A stretch of 64,000 nt of DNA from Nonomuraea jabiensis (GTDB lineage: Bacteria > Actinomycetota > Actinomycetes > Streptosporangiales > Streptosporangiaceae): contig NZ_JACHMB010000001.1 of NCBI RefSeq assembly GCF_014204795.1, forward strand, positions 4,278,001 to 4,342,000, in the 5' to 3' direction. The position numbers and the translations under genes were made by a program. Below are positions 21,468-32,067 of this stretch, in pieces. The notes under the pieces were generated by a model. It had not been told where the DNA came from. It was given only the letters and a program-made list of their open reading frames with translations, and ran no database searches. Each line of letters opens with the position of its first letter. The first letter of the stretch is position 1.

Positions 21468-21480
21468 TGGAGAACCATTG

Positions 21481-24360
21481 ATGCGAAAAATCCCGTTACT
21501 AGCCACCCTCACGCTGGCGGCCTCGCTGCTGGCCGTACCTCCCGCGCAGGCCGACGGCTTCCCGTTCCAGAACCCGGCCCTGCCGGTGGAGCAGCGGGTC
21601 GACGACCTGCTCGGCCGGCTCACGCTCCAGGAGAAGCTGGGCCTGCTGCACCAGTCGCAGGCGGCCATCCCGCGGCTGGGCATCGCCTACCACAAGAACG
21701 GCACCGAGGCGCTGCACGGCGTCGCCTGGTCCAACGACTTCAACGACAAGTGGAGCCAGAAGCTCGCAAGCGGCACCATGTTCCCGCAGGCCGTGGGGCT
21801 GGCCAGCACGTGGGACCCGGCGCTGATCAAGAAGGTGGGCTCCGCCGTCGGCGACGAGGCCCGCGGCTACAACGCCGTGGACCCGACCGTGTGGGGCCTG
21901 CAGGTGTGGGCGCCCGTCGTGGACCTGCTGCGCGACCCGCGGGCGGGCCGTAACGAGGAGGGCTACTCGGAGGACCCGCTCCTGACCGGGGCGATCTCCA
22001 CTGCCTACGGCAAGGGCCTGCAGGGTGACGACCCCTTCTACCTGAAGACCGCGCCCGTGCTGAAGCACTACCTCGCGTACAACAACGAGAGCAACCGCAG
22101 CCTCAGCTCCTCCAACCTGACGCCGAAGCTCAAGCACGAGTACTACGAGCAGGCGTTCAAGGCGGCCATCTCGGCCAACGCCGCGACCGGGGTCATGGCG
22201 TCGTACAACCTGGTCAACGGGCGGCCCAACCACGTCAACCCCGATCTCGGCACCACGGTCAGGTCGTGGACGGACAAGACGCTCTACAACGTCAGCGACG
22301 CCTGGGGGCCGCACGCGCTCACCGACCTGGAGAAGTACTACGACACCAAGCCCGAGGCGTTCGCCGCGGTGCTCAAGGCCGGGCTCGACAGCTTCACCAT
22401 CGACGACAACAACCCCGGGCCGCTGGCCGAGCACCTCACGGCCGCGCTGAACCAGGGGCTCATCACGCAGGCCGACGTGGACCGGGCCGTACGGAACGTC
22501 CTGACCATCCGCACCCGGCTGGGGCACTTCGACCCGGACGGAGGGCCGTACAAGAAGATCACCAAGGACGTGATCAACAGCCCGGCCAACCAGAAGCTCA
22601 ACCGGGAGGCGGCGGGCAAGGCGGCGGTGCTGCTGCGCAACTCCGGCGCCCTGCCGTTCAAGGGGCCGAAGTCGGCGGCCGTGGTCGGGCCGCTGGCCGG
22701 GACGCTGTACCACGACTGGTACGGGGGCACCATGCCCTACCAGGTGACGCCGCTCGACGGGATCAAGGAGCGCGTCGCCGACGTCAGCACCGGCACCGGG
22801 CTGGAGCGGATCGCGCTCAAGCACCTGGCCTCCGGCAAGTACATCACCGCCACCGGCACCGGGCCCGACGACAACGCGGCCCTGGTCGACACGGCGCCCA
22901 CCGCGGCCTCCGAGTGGGACCTGACCGACTGGACCAGCGGCGTGTCCACGCTGCGCAACGCGGGCAACGGCAAGCTGCTCGGCGGCGACTGGCGCTCGCT
23001 CGACACCGACGACGACCAGCCCCACGGCTGGTACGTGCAGCAGCAATTCGAGCTCCAAGCACAGGCCGACGGCAGCTACCTGATCAGGTACGCCGGTTAT
23101 GAGACCGGCGATGACTGGTACGGCCTGCGCGAGCCGTACGTCACGGTCTCCGCCGACGGCACGCTCGGCCTGGGCACCAAGGAGCAGGCGGCGAAGTTCG
23201 GCAAGGAAGTCGTCTCGGACGGCGTCGCCGAGGCCGCCGCGCAGGCCGCCAAGGCCGAGGTGGCGGTCGTGGTGGTGGGCAGCAACCCGTTCGTCGCGGG
23301 ACGTGAGGTCCACGACCGCGCCAACCTGCAGCTCGGCGAGGGGCAGCGGCGGCTGATCGAGGCCGTGCGCAAGGCCAACCCGCGCACGGTCGTCGTCCTG
23401 GAGACCAGCTACCCGGTCATCGTGGACGCCCCGAACCTGCTGTGGACCACGCACGCGGGCCCGGAGACCGGCCACGCGGTCGCCGACGTGCTCTTCGGCG
23501 CCGTCAACCCGGCCGGCCGGCTCACGCAGACCTGGCCCGCCACCGACAACCTGCCGAGCATCTACGACTACGACCTGGCCAAGACCGGGATGACGTACCT
23601 GTACGGGAAGGGCAAGCCGCTCTACGCGTTCGGGCACGGCCTGAGCTACACCACGTTCGGCTACCAGGGCCTGACCGTCCGGGGCGACAAGGTGAGCGTC
23701 AAGGTCACCAACACCGGCAAGGTCAAGGGCGACGAGGTGGTCCAGCTCTACACCCACCAGCGCGAGTCCCGCTTCAAGCAGCCGGTCAAGCAGCTGCGCG
23801 GCTTCCAGCGGGTCACGCTGAACCCGGGCGAGACCCGTACGGTGACCTTCACCCTGAAGAAGTCCGACCTGGCGGTCTGGGACTACACCCGGGGCAGGTG
23901 GGCCGTGGAGAGCGCCACCCATGACGTCCTCGTCGGCTCGGCGTCCGACAGGATCCGCCAGTCCACCACGCTGCGGGTCTCCGGCGAGACCATCCCCGCG
24001 CGTGACCTGGCGAAGACCACGCGGGCGATGGACTTCGACGACTACGCGGGCGTGACGTTCGCGGACGAGACCAAGGCCGGCGGCGAGGCCGTGGAAGGGT
24101 CGGCGGGGGACTGGATCTCCTTCACCGGCGCCTCCTTCGGCTCCCGCTTCACGGCCGGCGTGTCGTCGGTGAGCGGCGGCTCGCTGGAGCTGCGCTCCGG
24201 CTCGCCGACCGGCGCCCTGCTGGGCACCGTCCAGGTGCCCGCCACCGGCGGCGTCTACCAGTGGGGTACGGCGACCGCCACGGTCAAGGCGGGCGGCGGG
24301 AACCTGTACCTCGTGTTCAAGGGTGACCTGCGGATCAAGGACTTCGCGCTCGCCCGATGA
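21481..24360 (+). CDS. Secreted GH3 glycoside hydrolase (beta-glucosidase/beta-xylosidase type)
   Basis: 959 residues with a signal peptide (about 1-25, 'LAVPPAQA'). The (beta/alpha)8 domain begins with 'VDDLLGRLTLQEKLGLLHQ' and holds 'KNGTEALHGVAW', 'GRNEEGYSEDP' and the nucleophile D273 in 'NVSDAWGP'. The second GH3 domain is interrupted by a ricin/fascin-like beta-trefoil insert at about 440-560 ('LKHLASGKYITATGTG'), then resumes at 'VVVVGSNPFVAGREVHDR'. A fibronectin-III-like domain follows ('VKVTNTGKVKGDEVVQLYTH'), then a beta-sandwich C-terminus resembling CBM6-like modules. It would trim glucose or xylose from oligosaccharides outside the cell. It shares this layout with the intracellular enzyme at 47403. 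ATG 21481 chosen over TTG 21478. Confidence 0.9.
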   Translation: MRKIPLLATLTLAASLLAVPPAQADGFPFQNPALPVEQRVDDLLGRLTLQEKLGLLHQSQAAIPRLGIAYHKNGTEALHGVAWSNDFNDKWSQKLASGTMFPQAVGLASTWDPALIKKVGSAVGDEARGYNAVDPTVWGLQVWAPVVDLLRDPRAGRNEEGYSEDPLLTGAISTAYGKGLQGDDPFYLKTAPVLKHYLAYNNESNRSLSSSNLTPKLKHEYYEQAFKAAISANAATGVMASYNLVNGRPNHVNPDLGTTVRSWTDKTLYNVSDAWGPHALTDLEKYYDTKPEAFAAVLKAGLDSFTIDDNNPGPLAEHLTAALNQGLITQADVDRAVRNVLTIRTRLGHFDPDGGPYKKITKDVINSPANQKLNREAAGKAAVLLRNSGALPFKGPKSAAVVGPLAGTLYHDWYGGTMPYQVTPLDGIKERVADVSTGTGLERIALKHLASGKYITATGTGPDDNAALVDTAPTAASEWDLTDWTSGVSTLRNAGNGKLLGGDWRSLDTDDDQPHGWYVQQQFELQAQADGSYLIRYAGYETGDDWYGLREPYVTVSADGTLGLGTKEQAAKFGKEVVSDGVAEAAAQAAKAEVAVVVVGSNPFVAGREVHDRANLQLGEGQRRLIEAVRKANPRTVVVLETSYPVIVDAPNLLWTTHAGPETGHAVADVLFGAVNPAGRLTQTWPATDNLPSIYDYDLAKTGMTYLYGKGKPLYAFGHGLSYTTFGYQGLTVRGDKVSVKVTNTGKVKGDEVVQLYTHQRESRFKQPVKQLRGFQRVTLNPGETRTVTFTLKKSDLAVWDYTRGRWAVESATHDVLVGSASDRIRQSTTLRVSGETIPARDLAKTTRAMDFDDYAGVTFADETKAGGEAVEGSAGDWISFTGASFGSRFTAGVSSVSGGSLELRSGSPTGALLGTVQVPATGGVYQWGTATATVKAGGGNLYLVFKGDLRIKDFALAR

Positions 24361-24365
24361 CGTTT

Positions 24366-24399
24366 CGCGGCGGCCGTGAGCATGGTCATGGCCGCCGCG
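24366..24399 (+). terminator. Hairpin after the GH31-ABC-GH3 operon
   Basis: CGCGGCGGCC (24366-24375) and GGCCGCCGCG (24390-24399) form a perfect 10-bp stem with a 14-base loop, six bases after the GH3 stop. There is no U-tract, as is common in actinomycete terminators. Confidence 0.6.
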
Positions 24400-24420
24400 G
24401 AACACTCACTTGCCTCCGTT

Positions 24421-24461
24421 GGATAGTCGTGCTATCTGTTATCTAGATAATTCGACTATCC
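24421..24461. promoter_or_regulatory. Nested palindromes upstream of the DoxX-like gene
   Basis: GGATAGTCG (24421-24429) is repeated inverted as CGACTATCC (24453-24461). Inside lie a second dyad GATAG-TCGTG-CTATC (24422-24436) and the perfect palindrome TTATCTAGATAA (24439-24450). Such clustering of GATAG/CTATC half-sites indicates a repressor operator over the promoter. No regulator gene is adjacent, so the binding protein is not known. Confidence 0.6.
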
Positions 24462-24474
24462 AATGGAGGCTCCG

Positions 24475-24978
24475 GTGATCGTGATCGTTCTGCTGGTCGC
24501 CACGCTGGCGTTCCGGCTGCTGGGCGCGCTGGGTGTGGCCAGGTTCGCCACCTGGGGGGTCAGCGCCGCCCACGGGCTGGCGGTCATGCTGGTGATGACG
24601 GCCAGCGCGCATTTCGTCCCGGCGGGCGTGACGTTCATGCCCAACCAGGCCGACATGGTGGCCATGGTGCCGCCGTTCGTGCCGTTCCCGGCCCTGGTGG
24701 TCTATCTGACCGGCGTGCTGGAGCTGGCCGGCGCGGCCGGGCTCGTGCTCGAAAGGACCCGCCGGGCCGCCGGGATCTGCCTGGCGCTGCTCTTCGTGTT
24801 CCTGCTGCCGGCCAACGTGTACGCCGCCCTCGCCGGCCAGGACGTGACCCCGCTCTGGCAGCGGATCCCCGAGCAGGTCCTCTACATCGCGATCGCGCTG
24901 TGGGCCGCCGCGCGCGGCCACAAGCGCCTTAATTCGTTGTCCATCCAAACTATTGACCGTCAGCGCGCCCGTGTGTGA
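24475..24978 (+). CDS. DoxX-like membrane protein
   Basis: 167 residues with four hydrophobic helices ('VIVIVLLVATLAFRLLGAL', 'GLAVMLVMTASAHF', 'FPALVVYLTGVLELAGAAGL', 'ICLALLFVFLLPANVYAAL'). This is the DoxX-like four-helix pattern including the charged/polar 'TGVLELAGAAGLVLER' segment. The GTG at 24475 is preferred because GGAGG lies 5 bases upstream; the ATG at 24463 would place the ribosome site inside the gene. Function of the family is ill defined (quinone or redox related in some members). It is the only gene behind the palindrome cluster. Confidence 0.75.
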   Translation: MIVIVLLVATLAFRLLGALGVARFATWGVSAAHGLAVMLVMTASAHFVPAGVTFMPNQADMVAMVPPFVPFPALVVYLTGVLELAGAAGLVLERTRRAAGICLALLFVFLLPANVYAALAGQDVTPLWQRIPEQVLYIAIALWAAARGHKRLNSLSIQTIDRQRARV

Positions 24979-25104
24979 GCCTTCTTGAGTAGCTCATGCG
25001 CGAAGGCGCGGTGACGGTCAGGGTCCCTGCACTCTGCTCGTGCATGGCGGTCATCTGAAGCCTTTGGGGCGCCTGCTGGCGTGCCTGGAAAGGGAGAGCC
25101 GCGC

Positions 25105-27774
25105 ATGCGAAGAAGATTATCGGTCATGTTCACGGTCGCCGCCGTCCTGCTCGTGGCGGCGATCGTGCGGATGTCGCCGGTCTCGGCGGTCGCCTCGGAC
25201 CCGTACGCGTACAAGAACGTCAGGATCGACGGCGGCGGCTTCGTACCCGGCATCATCTTCAACCCCACGGAGAAGAACCTCATCTACGCCCGCACCGACA
25301 TCGGCGGGGCCTACCGGTGGAACCAGTCCACCAAGTCCTGGACCCCGTTGCTGGACTGGGCCGGCTGGGACAAGTGGGGCTACAACGGCGTGATCAGCCT
25401 CGCCACCGACCCCGTGCAGACCAACCGGGTGTACGCCGCCGTCGGCATGTACACCAACAGCTGGGACCCCAACAACGGCGCGATCCTGCGTTCGACGGAC
25501 AAGGGCGACAACTGGCAGGTCACGCCGCTGCCCTTCAAGCTGGGCGGCAACATGCCCGGCCGCGGCATGGGCGAGGCGCTGTCGGTGGACCCGAACAACA
25601 ACAGCGTCCTCTACCTGGGCACCCCCAACGGCAACGGGCTCTGGCGCAGCACCGACTACGGCGCCACCTGGGCGAAGGTGGCCAGCTTCCCGAACCCGGG
25701 CAACTACGCCCAGGACCCGAACGACTCCAACGGCTACCTCAGCCACAAGCCGGGCGTGGTCTGGGTGACCTACGACCCGCGCTCGTCCACCAAGGGCACC
25801 GCCACCAAGACCATCTACGTGGGCGTCGCCGACAAGGAGAACAGCGTCTACCGCACCACCGACGCGGGCGCCACCTGGTCGCGCGTGGCCGGCCAGCCGA
25901 CCGGCTACCTCGCCCACAAGGGCGTGCTGGACACCACCAACGGCTACCTCTACATCGCGACCAGCGACACCGGCGGCCCGTACGACGGCGCCAAGGGCGA
26001 CGTGTGGCGCTACGCCACCGCGACCGGCACCTGGACCCAGATCAGCCCCATCCCGTCGTCCAGCTCCGACGACTACTTCGGCTACAGCGGCCTGACCGTC
26101 GACCGGCAGAAGCCGGGCACGATCATGGTGGCCACGCAGATCTCCTGGTGGCCGGACGTGATCTTCTTCCGGTCCACGGACTCCGGCGCGACCTGGACCC
26201 GCGTGTGGGACTGGACCTCGTACCCGAACCGCAGCTTCCGCTACAAGCAGGACATCTCGGAGAACCCGTGGCTGAGCTTCGGCGCCAACCCGCAGCCCCC
26301 TGAGGTCACGCCCAAGCTCGGCTGGATGACGGAGTCCCTGGAGATCGACCCGTTCGACTCCAACAGGATGATGTACGGCACCGGCGCCACGATCTACGGC
26401 ACCGAGGACCTGACCAAGTGGGACTCGGGCACCCAGTTCACCATCAAGCCCATGGCCAAGGGCCTGGAGGAGACGGCCGTCCTGGACCTGATCAGCCCGC
26501 CGAGCGGCGCGCCCCTGGTCAGCGCCCTGGGCGACATCGGCGGCTTCCGCCACACGAACCTGGACGCCGTGCCGTCGACGATGTTCACGGCCCCGGTCTT
26601 CACCACGACCACCAGCCTGGACTACGCGGAGAAGTCCCCGTCGATCATGGTCCGGGCAGGCAGCTTCAAGGACTCCGACCGCCCGAACGACAGCCACGTG
26701 GCCTTCTCCACGGACGGCGGCGCCAACTGGTTCCAGGGCACGGAGCCGGGCGGCATCGACGAGGGCGGCACGGTGGCCGCCGCCGCCGACGGCTCCCGCT
26801 TCGTCTGGGCGCCCAAGGGCGTCACGCCGGTCTACTCGGTCGGGTACGGCAACTCCTGGCAGCAGGCGTCCGGCCTGCCCACGGGGGCGATCGTGGAGTC
26901 GGACCGCGTCAACGCCACGAAGTTCTACGGCTTCAACGGCGGACGCCTCTACGTCAGCACCAACGGCGGCGCGACCTTCACCGCCACCGCCGCCTCGGGC
27001 CTGCCTGCCACCGGCAAGCTCAAGGCGGTGCCGGGCAAGGAGGGCGACCTGTGGCTGGCCGGCGACGGCGGCCTGTGGCACTCCACCGACAGCGGCGCGT
27101 CCTTCACGAAGCTGGCGGGCATCACCAACTCGGTGAACGTCGGCTTCGGCAAGGCGGCGCCCGGCGGCACGTACATGGCGGTCTTCGCGGTGGCCACGAT
27201 CGGCGGCGTCACCGGCCTGTACCGCTCGGACGACGCCGGGGCGAACTGGGCGCGCATCAACGACGACAAACACCAGTGGGGCAACATGGGCGAGGCCCTG
27301 ACGGGCGACCCCAGGGTGTACGGCCGCGTCTACGTCGGCACCAACGGCCGCGGCATCCTGTACGGCGACCGCACCGGCCCGCCGGTAACCGTCACCCCCA
27401 CCGTGACCCCGACGGTCACCCCCACCGTCACACCCACCGTGACCCCGACCGTCACCCCCACCACGGGATCGGGCTGCGCGGCGACCTACAAGGGAGTCAA
27501 CGAGTGGTCGGGCGGCTTCCAGTCGGAGGTCACCGTCAAGAACACGGGCGCAGCGCAGATCACGGGCTGGAAGGTGACCTGGACCTGGCCGGGTAACCAG
27601 AAGATCAGCCAGCTCTGGGGCGGCACCCCGACCCAGACGGGCACCGGGGTGAGCGTCGTCAACGCCGGCTACAACGGCACCCTGGCACCGAACGGGACGA
27701 CGTCGTTCGGCTTCACGGGCACCTACACCGGCACCAACACCCCACCCGCCACCCTCACCTGCGCCCCGGCGTAA
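25105..27774 (+). CDS. GH74 xyloglucanase with C-terminal CBM2
   Basis: 889 residues, secreted (signal peptide about 1-30). The catalytic part (about 32-755) is a double seven-bladed propeller with many 'STDxGxxW' repeats. The two catalytic Asp of GH74 are recognisable: D65 in 'YARTDIGGAYRW' and D477 in 'SALGDIGGFRHT'. A Thr-Pro-Val linker (about 762-790) built of 'TVTP' repeats leads to a CBM2 cellulose-binding module ('YKGVNEWSGGFQSEVTV', 'WTWPGNQKISQLW') to the end. It is expected to cut the xyloglucan backbone while anchored to plant cell wall cellulose, feeding oligosaccharides to the importer at 18478-21467. No ROK or LacI site of the forms seen elsewhere precedes it. Confidence 0.94.
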   Translation: MRRRLSVMFTVAAVLLVAAIVRMSPVSAVASDPYAYKNVRIDGGGFVPGIIFNPTEKNLIYARTDIGGAYRWNQSTKSWTPLLDWAGWDKWGYNGVISLATDPVQTNRVYAAVGMYTNSWDPNNGAILRSTDKGDNWQVTPLPFKLGGNMPGRGMGEALSVDPNNNSVLYLGTPNGNGLWRSTDYGATWAKVASFPNPGNYAQDPNDSNGYLSHKPGVVWVTYDPRSSTKGTATKTIYVGVADKENSVYRTTDAGATWSRVAGQPTGYLAHKGVLDTTNGYLYIATSDTGGPYDGAKGDVWRYATATGTWTQISPIPSSSSDDYFGYSGLTVDRQKPGTIMVATQISWWPDVIFFRSTDSGATWTRVWDWTSYPNRSFRYKQDISENPWLSFGANPQPPEVTPKLGWMTESLEIDPFDSNRMMYGTGATIYGTEDLTKWDSGTQFTIKPMAKGLEETAVLDLISPPSGAPLVSALGDIGGFRHTNLDAVPSTMFTAPVFTTTTSLDYAEKSPSIMVRAGSFKDSDRPNDSHVAFSTDGGANWFQGTEPGGIDEGGTVAAAADGSRFVWAPKGVTPVYSVGYGNSWQQASGLPTGAIVESDRVNATKFYGFNGGRLYVSTNGGATFTATAASGLPATGKLKAVPGKEGDLWLAGDGGLWHSTDSGASFTKLAGITNSVNVGFGKAAPGGTYMAVFAVATIGGVTGLYRSDDAGANWARINDDKHQWGNMGEALTGDPRVYGRVYVGTNGRGILYGDRTGPPVTVTPTVTPTVTPTVTPTVTPTVTPTTGSGCAATYKGVNEWSGGFQSEVTVKNTGAAQITGWKVTWTWPGNQKISQLWGGTPTQTGTGVSVVNAGYNGTLAPNGTTSFGFTGTYTGTNTPPATLTCAPA

Positions 27775-28505: not shown

Positions 28506-29099
28506 TCATGAGCTGGTGGCTTGATGGTGGTCGCGGTGCTCTGTGACGGCTTCGGTGTAGTCCATGGTCGATAGATCGTCTTCGGTGATCCCGAGGTCGT
28601 ACATCTGCAATCTGACCGCTTCAAGCGCGGCCGGAAGCTGATCGAGGCTATCAACGATCGTCTCGATCTCCAGGAAAGTACCGTCCAGTTCGGGGACAGT
28701 AACCATGGTTGCCAGCATGGCGCGTCCCCTCGCTCGAAACTGCCAATTGACGCAGTGCTTTTCGAACGAGATGTACGGGTTGTAGCCAAGGCTCCTCAGG
28801 ATGGTGTCGATCGCCTCAGCGTCGGCAACTTCCGTCTCGTCCTCGGGCTTGGAATGGCTGGCTTCGTCCACCATGGGCGACTTGTGGGTCAGCAGAACGC
28901 GACGTCCCTCGTTGCTGGTCACCGTGCGGACGCGCAACTCACGGCCGATGGCAGTGAGGGAGCCGTCCGAGCAGTCGTAGTAGGTGTCGCGGTAGATGCT
29001 GGTCGCGCTCGTGGCTTGATGGTCCAGTGTCTCCCGGACCAGGTCAGGATCGCGGAGTCGGGCCTTCAGCTCGGCTTCGATGCGCACAGATGTCCTCAC
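28506..29099 (-). CDS. CYTH-domain protein (class IV adenylate cyclase / triphosphatase family)
   Basis: 197 residues forming one CYTH triphosphate tunnel domain. The diagnostic ExExK motif is E8-A-E10-L-K12 near the N-terminus. Further strands carry charged residues expected in the tunnel: 'RDTYYDCSDGSLTAIGRELRV' (trimmed), 'RVLLTHKSP', 'FEKHCVNWQFR' and 'TFLEIETIVD'. Family members either make cAMP or hydrolyse thiamine or inorganic triphosphates; the sequence does not decide between them. The GTG at 29099 is two bases after the stop of the HTH regulator, so the two genes form an operon. The start one ExExK-proximal GTG later is an alternative. Confidence 0.82.
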   Translation of the reverse strand: MRTSVRIEAELKARLRDPDLVRETLDHQATSATSIYRDTYYDCSDGSLTAIGRELRVRTVTSNEGRRVLLTHKSPMVDEASHSKPEDETEVADAEAIDTILRSLGYNPYISFEKHCVNWQFRARGRAMLATMVTVPELDGTFLEIETIVDSLDQLPAALEAVRLQMYDLGITEDDLSTMDYTEAVTEHRDHHQATSS

Positions 29100-29101
29100 T
29101 T

Positions 29102-29953
29102 TCAGATGACGCGTTGAGCGGTGCGAAGAGTTTGCTCGAACAGACGACGAAACCCTCGGTGGAGAGCCCCTTGGGGAGTAGGTGCGATCTTGTAAACGGC
29201 GGATTCGTGCCCCTCCCACTTCTGGCCGAATGCTGACACGTACTGGATCTCATCCAAGGTGATCAGCCGCCAAACGGGGAAGACGTTGTACCTGTAAACC
29301 TCAACGGTGAGCGATGGGGCGATGGTGCTCAGTTCCCTCAAGCGGGCCTCAGCAAGCTGGATACCGGCAGAGAAGGATTCGGGGGTTTCGTTGATCTCCT
29401 CGGCCCTGCGAGCCGCAGCCTGACCCTCAGGGGAGAGAAGTAGCACACGAAGAGTGCGAGGGACATCGGGTTCCCCGATCAACTCGGGGCGCAAGAGGGA
29501 GTCGTTGAGACCGAGTATTCCCAGTCCCCGGACGGCGAGGACGTCGATAGCGGTGACCTGGCGCGCGGCAGTACGGATGTCCTGGGCCGCCATTGACTGG
29601 GATGGGAATGTTTGGATGATCTCCGCTCGCCCGACCGGGCCTAGGTGATCAAGTCCAGCCGGGTGCTGGGGAGCAAGCCCAAACATCATTCGCGCCTCGT
29701 CGGGCATCCCTAGACCCTCGGCTACCCGCTCGTACGTCTCCATCGCTGTGATCGTTCGGACGCCGCTCATTACTTCGCTGACCCTGCCTTGCAGCATCCC
29801 GGTCGCGATTGCAATGCGCGTTTGAGTTGCGCCGTGATGCTTTGCGAGGGCGAACAACGCGCGTACGTCCCTTGCCTGAAGTGCGGCTCTGGTGCTCGGG
29901 AGTCTCCACGACCGGAGGGGGATGACGATTGGCTCATACGACGGAGGGCTCAC
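29102..29953 (-). CDS. XRE-like helix-turn-helix regulator with C-terminal sensor-like domain
   Basis: 283 residues. The GTG at 29953 follows AGGAG with a 5-base gap. An HTH lies at about 27-80 ('ARDVRALFALAKHHGATQTR', 'TGMLQGRVSEVMSG', 'YERVAEGLGMPDEAR'). The C-terminal 200 residues include 'FPSQSMAAQDIRTAARQVTA' and 'LTVEVYRYNVFPVWRLITLDE', a domain seen in actinomycete regulators of unknown signal. It precedes the CYTH gene in an operon, so it may respond to or control the product of that enzyme. A near-perfect palindrome lies 33 bases upstream of its start. Confidence 0.75.
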   Translation of the reverse strand: MSPPSYEPIVIPLRSWRLPSTRAALQARDVRALFALAKHHGATQTRIAIATGMLQGRVSEVMSGVRTITAMETYERVAEGLGMPDEARMMFGLAPQHPAGLDHLGPVGRAEIIQTFPSQSMAAQDIRTAARQVTAIDVLAVRGLGILGLNDSLLRPELIGEPDVPRTLRVLLLSPEGQAAARRAEEINETPESFSAGIQLAEARLRELSTIAPSLTVEVYRYNVFPVWRLITLDEIQYVSAFGQKWEGHESAVYKIAPTPQGALHRGFRRLFEQTLRTAQRVI

Positions 29954-29985
29954 GCTGACTCCTGTCCCGGAAGCAAGTGAGCAGA

Positions 29986-30004
29986 GTATCTCACCATGAG
30001 ATAC
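29986..30004. promoter_or_regulatory. Palindrome upstream of the HTH-CYTH operon
   Basis: GTATCTCA-CCA-TGAGATAC: two perfect 8-base arms with a 3-base centre. A further TGAGAT half-site follows at about 30011. The position, 33 bases upstream of the HTH gene start, suggests autoregulation. Confidence 0.6.
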
Positions 30005-30329
30005 CACGCGTGAGATGGCAGCGCACGCCCTTCACGGGGATCGTCATTACGCAGTACGACGAAGGGTTGGGCGTGAGGTAGAGCGTTTGTGCCCGCCAAC
30101 AAGCCCATCCAGTCAGGGGCGAGAGAACGCCACAAAGGCGGGAGCCGCAGGCGCTAGCACGCCGTACGGCTCCCTTGATCAGGAATCGAGGTCCTGACCC
30201 ATGGCACAGGATACGGCGAATCGGGCGCGAGGAAGCGACTGCGAGAGCGGCCTAGGCCACGCTGAACAGGGCACGCCGAACGCGTGGCCAGTCCTGGACA
30301 CGCTGTCGAAGGGGCAGCAGGAGCCAAGG
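30005..30329. other. Divergent intergenic region, HTH-CYTH versus DUF574 operon
   Basis: About 325 bases. The frame upstream of the methyltransferase start can be extended to 30201 but lacks a ribosome site and has poor similarity, so it is treated as leader. No RNA gene was recognised here. Confidence 0.4.
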
Positions 30330-31115
30330 ATGTCGCGGTCGGTGATTGATCTGAATGTGCCGAATGTGGCGCGTATGTACGACTGCTTCCTTGGCGGCAA
30401 GGACAATTACGAGGCGGACCGGGCGGCAGCTGCGGAAGCGTTGCGGCTGAATCCGGACGCGGCGCGGTGCCCGCGAGAGAACCGGGCGTTCCTGGGTCGG
30501 GCGGTGCGGTTCGTCGCTCACTCGGGGGTGCGGCAGTTCCTGGACGTCGGGACGGGTTTCCCCTCGATGGGCAATGTGCACGAAGTAGCCCAGAGCGTCC
30601 ATGGTGACGCTCGGACGGTGTACGTGGACTATGACCCGGTCGTGGTTCAGCACGGGCGGGCGCTGCTGGCCACGGACGAGCGCACCGTGATGGTGGAAGA
30701 GGACCTACGCAAGCCGGGACGGATCCTTGAGCAGGCGGCCGATCTGCTGGACTTCGGTAGGCCGGTATGCGTGCTGCTGGTGGCGTGCCTGCACTTCGTC
30801 ACGGCGACGGAAGACCCGTACCGGGTCGTGAAACGGCTGATGCGGTCCACAGCGCCGGGAAGCTACCTGGTCATCTCGCATGTGATCAAGACGCCACAGA
30901 CGATCGCGGCTGCTGCTGCCTATCGGGGCGCGTCTGCGCCGGTGGTGCTGCGAACGGAAGAGCAGGTCGGCAGGATTTTCACAGCGGCGGGCGTGGAACT
31001 GGTGGAGCCGGGGCTGGTACGGGTGCCGTCATGGCGTCCCGACCTGGACCATGCACTTGCCGAAGAGGACGCCGCGAGGGCGGACTTCCTGGGCGGGGTT
31101 GGGAGGAAGGCGTGA
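30330..31115 (+). CDS. SAM-dependent methyltransferase, DUF574 family
   Basis: 261 residues, start ATG with AGGAG six bases upstream. The family opening 'NVARMYDCFLGGKDNYEADR' (trimmed) and the SAM-binding 'QFLDVGTGFPSMGNVHEVA' are clear, followed by 'TVYVDYDPVVVQHGRALL' and 'YLVISHV'. DUF574 proteins are very numerous in actinomycetes, usually beside small regulators; substrates are unknown. Its stop overlaps the GTG of the next gene (GTGA), and that gene overlaps the third, so the three are translated as a coupled unit. Confidence 0.88.
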   Translation: MSRSVIDLNVPNVARMYDCFLGGKDNYEADRAAAAEALRLNPDAARCPRENRAFLGRAVRFVAHSGVRQFLDVGTGFPSMGNVHEVAQSVHGDARTVYVDYDPVVVQHGRALLATDERTVMVEEDLRKPGRILEQAADLLDFGRPVCVLLVACLHFVTATEDPYRVVKRLMRSTAPGSYLVISHVIKTPQTIAAAAAYRGASAPVVLRTEEQVGRIFTAAGVELVEPGLVRVPSWRPDLDHALAEEDAARADFLGGVGRKA

Positions 31116-31450
31116 ACGCGAGGGCGGGGGTGGACAGCCCTGCGGAGAGCCTGGCGCGAAAGCTGGCTGAGGAACTGGAGCGGTACGGGATCGCATCGCA
31201 GGTCTCCGAGTGCCAGGGGGTCGCGCTGGTGGGAATCTGGTCGGTCCGGCTGGCGGTCTGGTGCGAGTGGGGGTCGCAGGGCTGGCGTTTTCGCTGGTGC
31301 CTGAACGATACGAGTGAGCGGTGGACGTATACCTCGTGCCCCTGCTCAGCGATGGAGACGGCGGTGCGGCGGCTGGTGCACCGCTACCAGATGCGGCACA
31401 TACAGGTGTACGGGACGGACCCCTTCGCCACGGGTGAGGTGCGGTCGTGA
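31112..31450 (+). CDS. Unknown small protein
   Basis: 112 residues, no recognised family. An N-terminal helix ('ESLARKLAEELERYGIASQV') is followed by a Trp-rich beta-looking segment ('VALVGIWSVRLAVWCEWG', 'GWRFRWCLND', 'RWTYTSCPC') and a basic helix ('TAVRRLVHRYQMRHIQ'). Start GTG overlaps the methyltransferase stop and its stop overlaps the next start, which supports it being a real gene. Probably a partner of the DUF574 protein. Confidence 0.65.
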   Translation: MNARAGVDSPAESLARKLAEELERYGIASQVSECQGVALVGIWSVRLAVWCEWGSQGWRFRWCLNDTSERWTYTSCPCSAMETAVRRLVHRYQMRHIQVYGTDPFATGEVRS

Positions 31451-32067
31451 GCGGCCCCGGGAACGCGGCGGCGACGGGGTTCCGGTATCCGTACGTTATC
31501 GGCTGGACGGGCGAGGCTGAGAGGCATCGCCTGATGTGGGTGCCTCGGCCGCTGGGCGGGGTGCGGTTGTGCTACGTCGATTCGCGGCCGGGTGATCACG
31601 AGCTGGGTGTGCTCCGTCTGCGGCAGAACGGCAGGCGGGCGGGGCGGCCGGACTTTACGACGGTGAACACGCGTCGGCAGTGGCGCTGCATGACCCGGTC
31701 GTGGTGCCAGGTGTGCGGGGGGTCGGCGGTGGACGCGGAGACGGGACGGATCTGGTGGCTGTTGTCGTCGGATCAGGGTGAAGGCGGGGACGGCTACACC
31801 AACGCGCCTCCGACGTGCCGGGCGTGCATCCCTGAGGCGATTCGGCAGTGTTCGCATCTGCGTCGTCATGCGGCGGTGTTCACGGTGGCGGAGTGTGCTC
31901 CGTTCGGGGTTCGGGGGGATGTGTTCCTGCCGGGCTTGCCGCCGATGGTGCCGTTGGCTGTGAACCGGGTGGTGCGTCTGGACGATGCGGAGTTGCCGCA
32001 CTGCTTGGCCCGAGAACTGTTGATGCGGGTGGTCGATGTGCGGGAGGAGACAGCCATCGATCACTAA
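31447..32067 (+). CDS. Unknown protein with Cys-rich putative zinc site
   Basis: 206 residues, third gene of the DUF574 unit. It carries 'CQVCGG' near residue 86 and 'CRACIPEAIRQC' near 127, a spacing consistent with a zinc-binding knuckle. Other parts are 'RHRLMWVPRPLGGVRLCYVD' and 'VNRVVRLDDAELPHCLAREL' (both trimmed to the quoting limit). No enzyme motif was recognised. Its stop is only 20 bases from the truncated SARP gene. Confidence 0.65.
   Translation: MSGPGNAAATGFRYPYVIGWTGEAERHRLMWVPRPLGGVRLCYVDSRPGDHELGVLRLRQNGRRAGRPDFTTVNTRRQWRCMTRSWCQVCGGSAVDAETGRIWWLLSSDQGEGGDGYTNAPPTCRACIPEAIRQCSHLRRHAAVFTVAECAPFGVRGDVFLPGLPPMVPLAVNRVVRLDDAELPHCLARELLMRVVDVREETAIDH

Follow-up and report, generated by a model that had tools for sequence, protein, structure and literature searches.

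The 64,000-nucleotide stretch of Nonomuraea jabiensis DNA analyzed here (the window) contained two adjacent genes, one for an HTH regulator and one for a CYTH protein. Their coupling was strongly supported by sequence comparison across genomes, and the pair appears to be a dedicated two-gene unit that travels together among actinobacteria. With moderate confidence, the unit is interpreted as a self-regulated, partly mobile operon, in which the regulator would repress itself and the CYTH gene and sense a ligand, and in which the CYTH protein would be a triphosphatase rather than a cyclase.

Both genes were on the minus strand. The regulator gene (29953–29102, with its stop codon at 29104–29102) encoded 283 residues, comprising an N-terminal XRE-type HTH and a predicted phospholipase D/TrmB-like C-terminal domain, and was followed by the CYTH gene (29087–28506), encoding a probable triphosphatase of 193 residues with the triphosphate tunnel metalloenzyme (TTM) fold. 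An earlier note on this DNA had described a regulator followed after two bases by a CYTH gene, behind a perfect palindrome. The gene pair proved to be real. The two-base gap holds if the CYTH gene starts at GTG 29099 and does not hold for GTG 29087, which lies 14 bases after the regulator stop codon and is the better start, because a putative ribosome-binding site (GAGGA, 29093–29097, minus strand) sits five bases upstream of it. For the regulator, the most likely start is GTG 29953, which is 3′ of the palindrome, an arrangement also seen in relatives; the upstream GTG 30007 is a less likely start. The palindrome, GTATCTCA-TGG-TGAGATAC (29986–30004, no strand), is indeed perfect, with 8-bp arms and a 3-base spacer; position 30004, where the stretch in the earlier note ended, is its edge.

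A scan of named genomes yielded 145 CYTH relatives, the best 80 of which were taken as loci for comparison. Hosts of these best 80 of 145 included Nonomuraea, Microtetraspora, Acrocarpospora, Streptomyces, Nocardia, Actinomadura, Nocardioides, Catenulispora, Kitasatospora and others. The C-terminal part of the regulator was encoded directly upstream and on the same strand at 67 of these 80 loci, as one open frame with the HTH part (57 loci), as a frameshifted gene (5) or with the C-terminal part alone found (5); the 57 open frames include two (L101 and L111) whose matches begin only at residues 53 and 32, and a frameshift in a draft genome may be a sequencing error. The other 13 loci had no such regulator. 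Within the family of the host, 200 genomes including its own contained CYTH relatives in eight and near-full-length regulators in six, all six of which adjoined CYTH; other XRE-type regulators stood alongside the two remaining CYTH loci. A class-level sample had CYTH in 4 of 394 genomes, namely the host's own, two with the pair (G165 and G465) and one with a broken regulator (G332). Among 246 Streptomyces genomes, CYTH occurred in 27 and was nearly full length in 19, and near-full-length regulators occurred in 11, each beside CYTH (11/11); two of the other eight near-full-length CYTH genes were accompanied by a broken regulator (G332 and G733).

Protein distances of the regulator and of CYTH were strongly correlated (Spearman 0.91, n = 58 pairs, host kinship left in), with none of 999 permutations giving as high a value. 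This correlation and the residue counts over 58 and 81 proteins below were based on the 57 open regulators and the 80 CYTH proteins plus the window sequences, while the alignments comprised 45 of the 57 regulators (A3) and 44 of the 80 CYTH proteins (A4), each plus the window sequence. The search for conserved co-occurrence in other actinomycetes that the earlier note had proposed therefore came out in favor of the pairing, which held at 67/80 loci, for 11/11 Streptomyces regulators and for 6/6 in the host's own family; a lack of conserved pairing across genomes, named there as the outcome that would speak against the coupling, was looked for and was not what the genomes contained.

Outside this core, no cluster of neighboring genes occurred at more than 8 of the 80 loci, save one at 13 loci, which consisted of opposite-strand frames, most of them overlying the core. 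In the window, a divergent plus-strand set (30201–32067) comprised a SAM methyltransferase (PF04672, 30201–31115) and frames of 112 and 206 residues. The methyltransferase was in the same place at only three of the 80 loci (L061, L062, and L063) and was rejected as a core component; L061 and L062 also had matches to the 112-residue frame, and L061 and L063 to the 206-residue one. These would be lineage-specific neighbors having the intergenic region in common with the operator. On the other side, two large secreted-looking glycoside hydrolase-like frames of 960 and 897 residues (21478–27774, plus strand; by eye) adjoin the cassette, the 897-residue frame having a carbohydrate-binding-like C-terminal end (by eye).

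Since the window contained 27 palindromes with 8-bp arms and spacers of ≤5 bases, the palindrome is unremarkable alone and was rejected as evidence by itself; its weight comes from its conservation. The conserved core, ATCTCAnnnTGAGAT, was searched for with ≤1 mismatch from -120 to +10 of the extrapolated regulator start and was found before the regulator in 57 of the 62 loci having the HTH part; the five others at this threshold were L075 and L129 (each with two mismatches), and L101, L111, and L133. No further match with ≤1 mismatch was found in 794,048 bp, over which the reversed pattern also gave 0. With ≤1 mismatch, the site was absent from all five loci with the C-terminal part alone; from the 1.3 kb upstream of CYTH in all 13 regulator-less loci it was absent even at two mismatches. 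Of 17 Streptomyces genomes searched in full, all 11 that have the regulator carried a longer form of the site at their cassette, and all six with CYTH only lacked it. The genome of N. jabiensis (13.17 Mb) had the site with ≤1 mismatch at this cassette only; at two mismatches there were three other sites, as many as with the reversed control. That the palindrome is the operator of the regulator is, by inference from these sequences, strongly supported. The tie between site and regulator presence suggests a dedicated self-regulator with one site, in its own promoter region. A wider regulon was seen neither in the host genome (≤1 mismatch) nor in the 17 Streptomyces genomes, aside from one additional two-mismatch site in G669, the only extra site among the 17. 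In the host genome, at about 11.09 Mb (L003/L144), a two-mismatch operator-like site lies about 60 bases upstream of another XRE-type gene, whose product has a TPR-like C-terminal part and whose frame looks broken; this product may be a relative reading a similar site.

The CYTH protein of the window matched the Pfam CYTH family (PF01928) with 60.2 bits (cut-off 23.2), and its structure model (pLDDT 95) had a predicted eight-stranded tunnel fold, matching PH1819 (2EEN) at Z 23.6, class IV cyclases and one putative cyclase at Z about 22, and SaTTM at Z about 21. Because these Z scores are similar, fold alone cannot separate a cyclase from a triphosphatase. The ExExK motif, intact as the earlier note had stated (E4-A-E6-L-K8), was present in 81 of 81 CYTH proteins, and by its sequence and modeled fold the window protein is a member of the CYTH/TTM superfamily. 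PADLOC gave no match for it, and PHROGs at E 0.01 no family.

The earlier note had also proposed cAMP as a possible signal of the regulator, which would make the CYTH protein a class IV adenylyl cyclase. The nearest NCBIfam model was indeed cyaB (TIGR00318, E 1.1e-14), the solved class IV cyclases matched the model, and plasmid and phage copies, among them those in the phage mu1/6 and S. melanogenes plasmid records (L208, L209, and L211), bear the database name ‘class IV adenylate cyclase.’ However, the cyaB score of 54.7 bits was below the cut-off of 57.95, the non-cyclases PH1819 and SaTTM reached the same fold score, and no cyclic-nucleotide-binding domain was seen in profile searches of the regulator. 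As given in PMC8233210, class IV cyclases are marked by HF before ExExK, by a small residue in place of the first Arg of RxR, and by Ala in place of the second Glu of ExE. None of these three marks was found: the HF motif (HFxxxxExExK) was absent in the window protein (by eye) and in frame in 0 of 80 relatives, and R52 (first Arg of RxR) and E142 (second Glu of ExE) were kept in 81 of 81, so that RxR and ExE are each complete in the window protein. On these motifs cAMP signaling was rejected, and we regard it as very improbable; the naming of subfamily members as class IV adenylate cyclases is likely a misannotation.

We read the CYTH protein instead as a triphosphatase of changed specificity, the activity of which may itself be changed or lost. 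The four Glu of the ExE motifs at both ends, which are the metal ligands in TTM proteins according to PMC8233210, were present in 81 of 81 (E4, E6, E140, and E142), and D34 and Y36 of DxY, K8, K69, and K110 were invariant. In SaTTM, the triphosphate is held by five basic residues, R56, R58, K69, K110, and R112 (PMC8233210), four of which are kept here as R52, R54 (80/81), K69, and K110, while the fifth is Cys112 (81/81). This replacement of a triphosphate-binding Arg means that activity may be altered or lost. At the tunnel gate, Glu50 was present in 81 of 81, where SaTTM has Ala54 and thiamine triphosphatase has Trp; the Trp of the thiamine triphosphatase motif WxRxR was thus absent. Glu50 and Cys112 are invariant oddities that mark off this CYTH subfamily in the sequences compared. 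The same two residues would also fit a CYTH fold that has lost catalysis and forms, as the ligand-binding half, a two-part sensor with the regulator, and CYTH-like folds in Mediator were among the fold matches. The CYTH-like folds of Mediator are not known to be enzymatic. We consider such a sensor unlikely, since the four metal-binding Glu and the five invariant residues named above are kept and CYTH persists without the regulator.

The HTH part of the window regulator scored 20 bits against HTH_31, below the cut-off of 27, and HTH_31 was matched by 46 of 46 aligned regulators (E up to 1, best E 4.8e-11). PADLOC gave only RmrA (E 0.005, across the HTH), and the PHROGs families matched at E 0.01 were all weak and of HTH type (best E 6.2e-4). 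The C-terminal domain, which the earlier note had left unassigned, can be placed by its structure model (mean pLDDT 85, pTM 0.68 for the regulator), which matched 2f5t, the sensor domain of TrmB, with Z 12.2 (rmsd 2.5, 128 residues) and 1byr, a single-lobe phospholipase D nuclease, with Z 11.3 (rmsd 3.0, 137 residues); profile searches of the regulator gave no sequence match to TrmB. DUF5919 (PF19319), a C-terminal domain of HTH proteins named by no paper in the open-access literature searched, was a weak match in 16 of 46 regulators (best E 3.2e-4) and not in the window protein. Placed by strand order, our own assignment, Val227-x-Arg229-x4-Asp234 falls on the HxKxxxxD motif, with Thr, Val or Ile at the position of the catalytic His in 58 of 58 regulators. 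The domain is thus modeled as a phospholipase D-like fold that lacks the catalytic His and is near the TrmB sensor domain. R142, R229, and H249 were invariant in 58 of 58 regulators and R169, R183, and R270 in 46 of 46, which suggests a candidate site for a phosphate-bearing ligand.

Judging from the frames that were found, CYTH outlives the regulator. Open CYTH frames stood behind broken regulators, and in a Nocardia locus (L073), the flanks of which match four sister loci retaining the regulator, a MerR-type gene led directly into CYTH. The reverse case was found only as decay: in G103 and G630 the regulator frame was decayed and CYTH was not found, and in G166 both genes were fragments. This persistence of CYTH next to broken regulators or after regulator loss points to CYTH as the working part and against its being a toxin. 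It bears on a toxin–antitoxin reading, in which CYTH would be a toxin that consumes a nucleotide, with the HTH protein as its antitoxin and autoregulator, as might fit two adjacent, mobile genes with a self-site and an HTH resembling the antitoxins HigA (31 of 46 members) and HipB (12 of 46), with weak E-values. However, this likeness is to common HTH families, and a free toxin would not be expected to keep an open frame at loci whose regulator is frameshifted, reduced or missing, as CYTH does, which makes the reading highly improbable.

Other XRE genes stood by regulator-less CYTH genes: upstream genes of the DUF5753 type in L100, L126, and L135, an upstream TPR-type gene in L112, and divergent TPR-type genes in L070 and L080. 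Both XRE families are very common in Streptomyces. Further neighbors of regulator-less CYTH were an HD-domain gene (L125) and NUDIX genes (L126, L134, and L210), named by eye unless annotated, a nucleotide-handling setting.

The pair was also found on mobile elements. In the temperate phage mu1/6 it is gp2-gp1, near the integrase gp5 and with the site, and the viral collection held seven further contigs, all with regulator, site, and CYTH (7/7), and an eighth with an HTH match only. In the stretches read, contigs L214, L216, and L218 had integrases according to PHROGs, and L214, L217, and L219 had endolysins; for L215, one neighbor was checked, giving no PHROGs match, and its phage nature rests on its presence in the viral collection. 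The two mu1/6 proteins belonged to no PHROGs family at E 0.001. Eight records of a plasmid collection had CYTH and four the regulator, in each case next to CYTH by coordinates, two of the four being replicons of >2 Mb. Two S. melanogenes plasmids had the pair with the site in full context, and a Kitasatospora plasmid had CYTH followed by a NUDIX gene, without the regulator. Phage-like genes were near chromosomal copies at 4 of the 80 loci (best 80 of 145), which does not support every copy being a prophage remnant. Phage carriage is thus recurrent in these sequences and not the rule.

These occurrences could reflect phage-type defense or lysogenic-conversion cargo, with CYTH destroying a nucleotide or RNA 5′-triphosphate that a competing phage needs and the regulator turning CYTH on during infection. 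The cassettes of mu1/6 and of the seven viral contigs (three with integrase, three with endolysin) and the patchy distribution (CYTH in 8/200 and 27/246 genomes) are consistent with such a role, but the scarcity of phage-like genes near chromosomal copies and the PADLOC search, which gave nothing beyond a weak HTH match, speak against it, and we hold it to be rather unlikely.

The component parts are of known kinds. In the open-access literature searched (titles and abstract starts), neither the gene pair nor its site nor the tunnel residues Glu50 and Cys112 were found to be described. The CYTH protein resembles the archaeal TTM proteins SaTTM and PH1819 (PDB 7NS9 and 2EEN) in fold, in ExExK, RxR, ExE, and DxY, in its single domain and in its similar length; SaTTM, a triphosphatase according to PMC8233210, differs in having Arg112 and Ala54 where Cys112 and Glu50 occur here (81/81), and the protein studied here is accompanied by a regulator of its own. 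The regulator resembles the archaeal TrmB and TrmBL2, which have an HTH (winged or other) and a phospholipase D-like C-terminal domain, with which TrmB binds sugars according to the title of 2f5t, but it differs in its XRE-type HTH and single self-site operator. The mu1/6 gp2-gp1 genes agree in number, order, and site, and their proteins are 50% and 54% identical to those of the window, but they are phage-borne, two small genes from the integrase, and recorded only as an HTH protein and a ‘class IV adenylate cyclase.’

In the self-regulated operon that we favor, the regulator would bind the single operator 5′ of its own gene and, once bound, would repress, rather than activate, its own gene and the CYTH gene. 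The phospholipase D/TrmB-type domain of the regulator, being catalytically dead, would sense a small, probably phosphate-bearing ligand, the binding of which would release repression. CYTH would act as a two-metal triphosphatase hydrolyzing a particular triphosphate, and the regulator may, as a guess, sense either this CYTH substrate or a related compound. A triphosphate as the signal, the other proposal of the earlier note, is thereby kept as a hypothesis. The pair would pass as a unit among actinobacteria, partly via temperate phages and plasmids. It is tentatively conceivable that a new triphosphatase specificity, marked by the invariant Glu50 and Cys112, and a dead phospholipase D-fold sensor reading the same triphosphate make up a closed loop by which a specific signaling or damage triphosphate is removed, and that as cargo of temperate phages this loop alters or protects the lysogen.

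The physiological role of CYTH proteins is described as largely elusive in section 11 of PMC8233210. For a CYTH subfamily that is paired with a sensor and has one site, the ligand could be sought via the regulator. Because the cyclase name is contradicted by the published motif rule, cAMP production may be wrongly inferred for such bacteria, and carriage by temperate phages would make the effect of the pair testable in lysogens.
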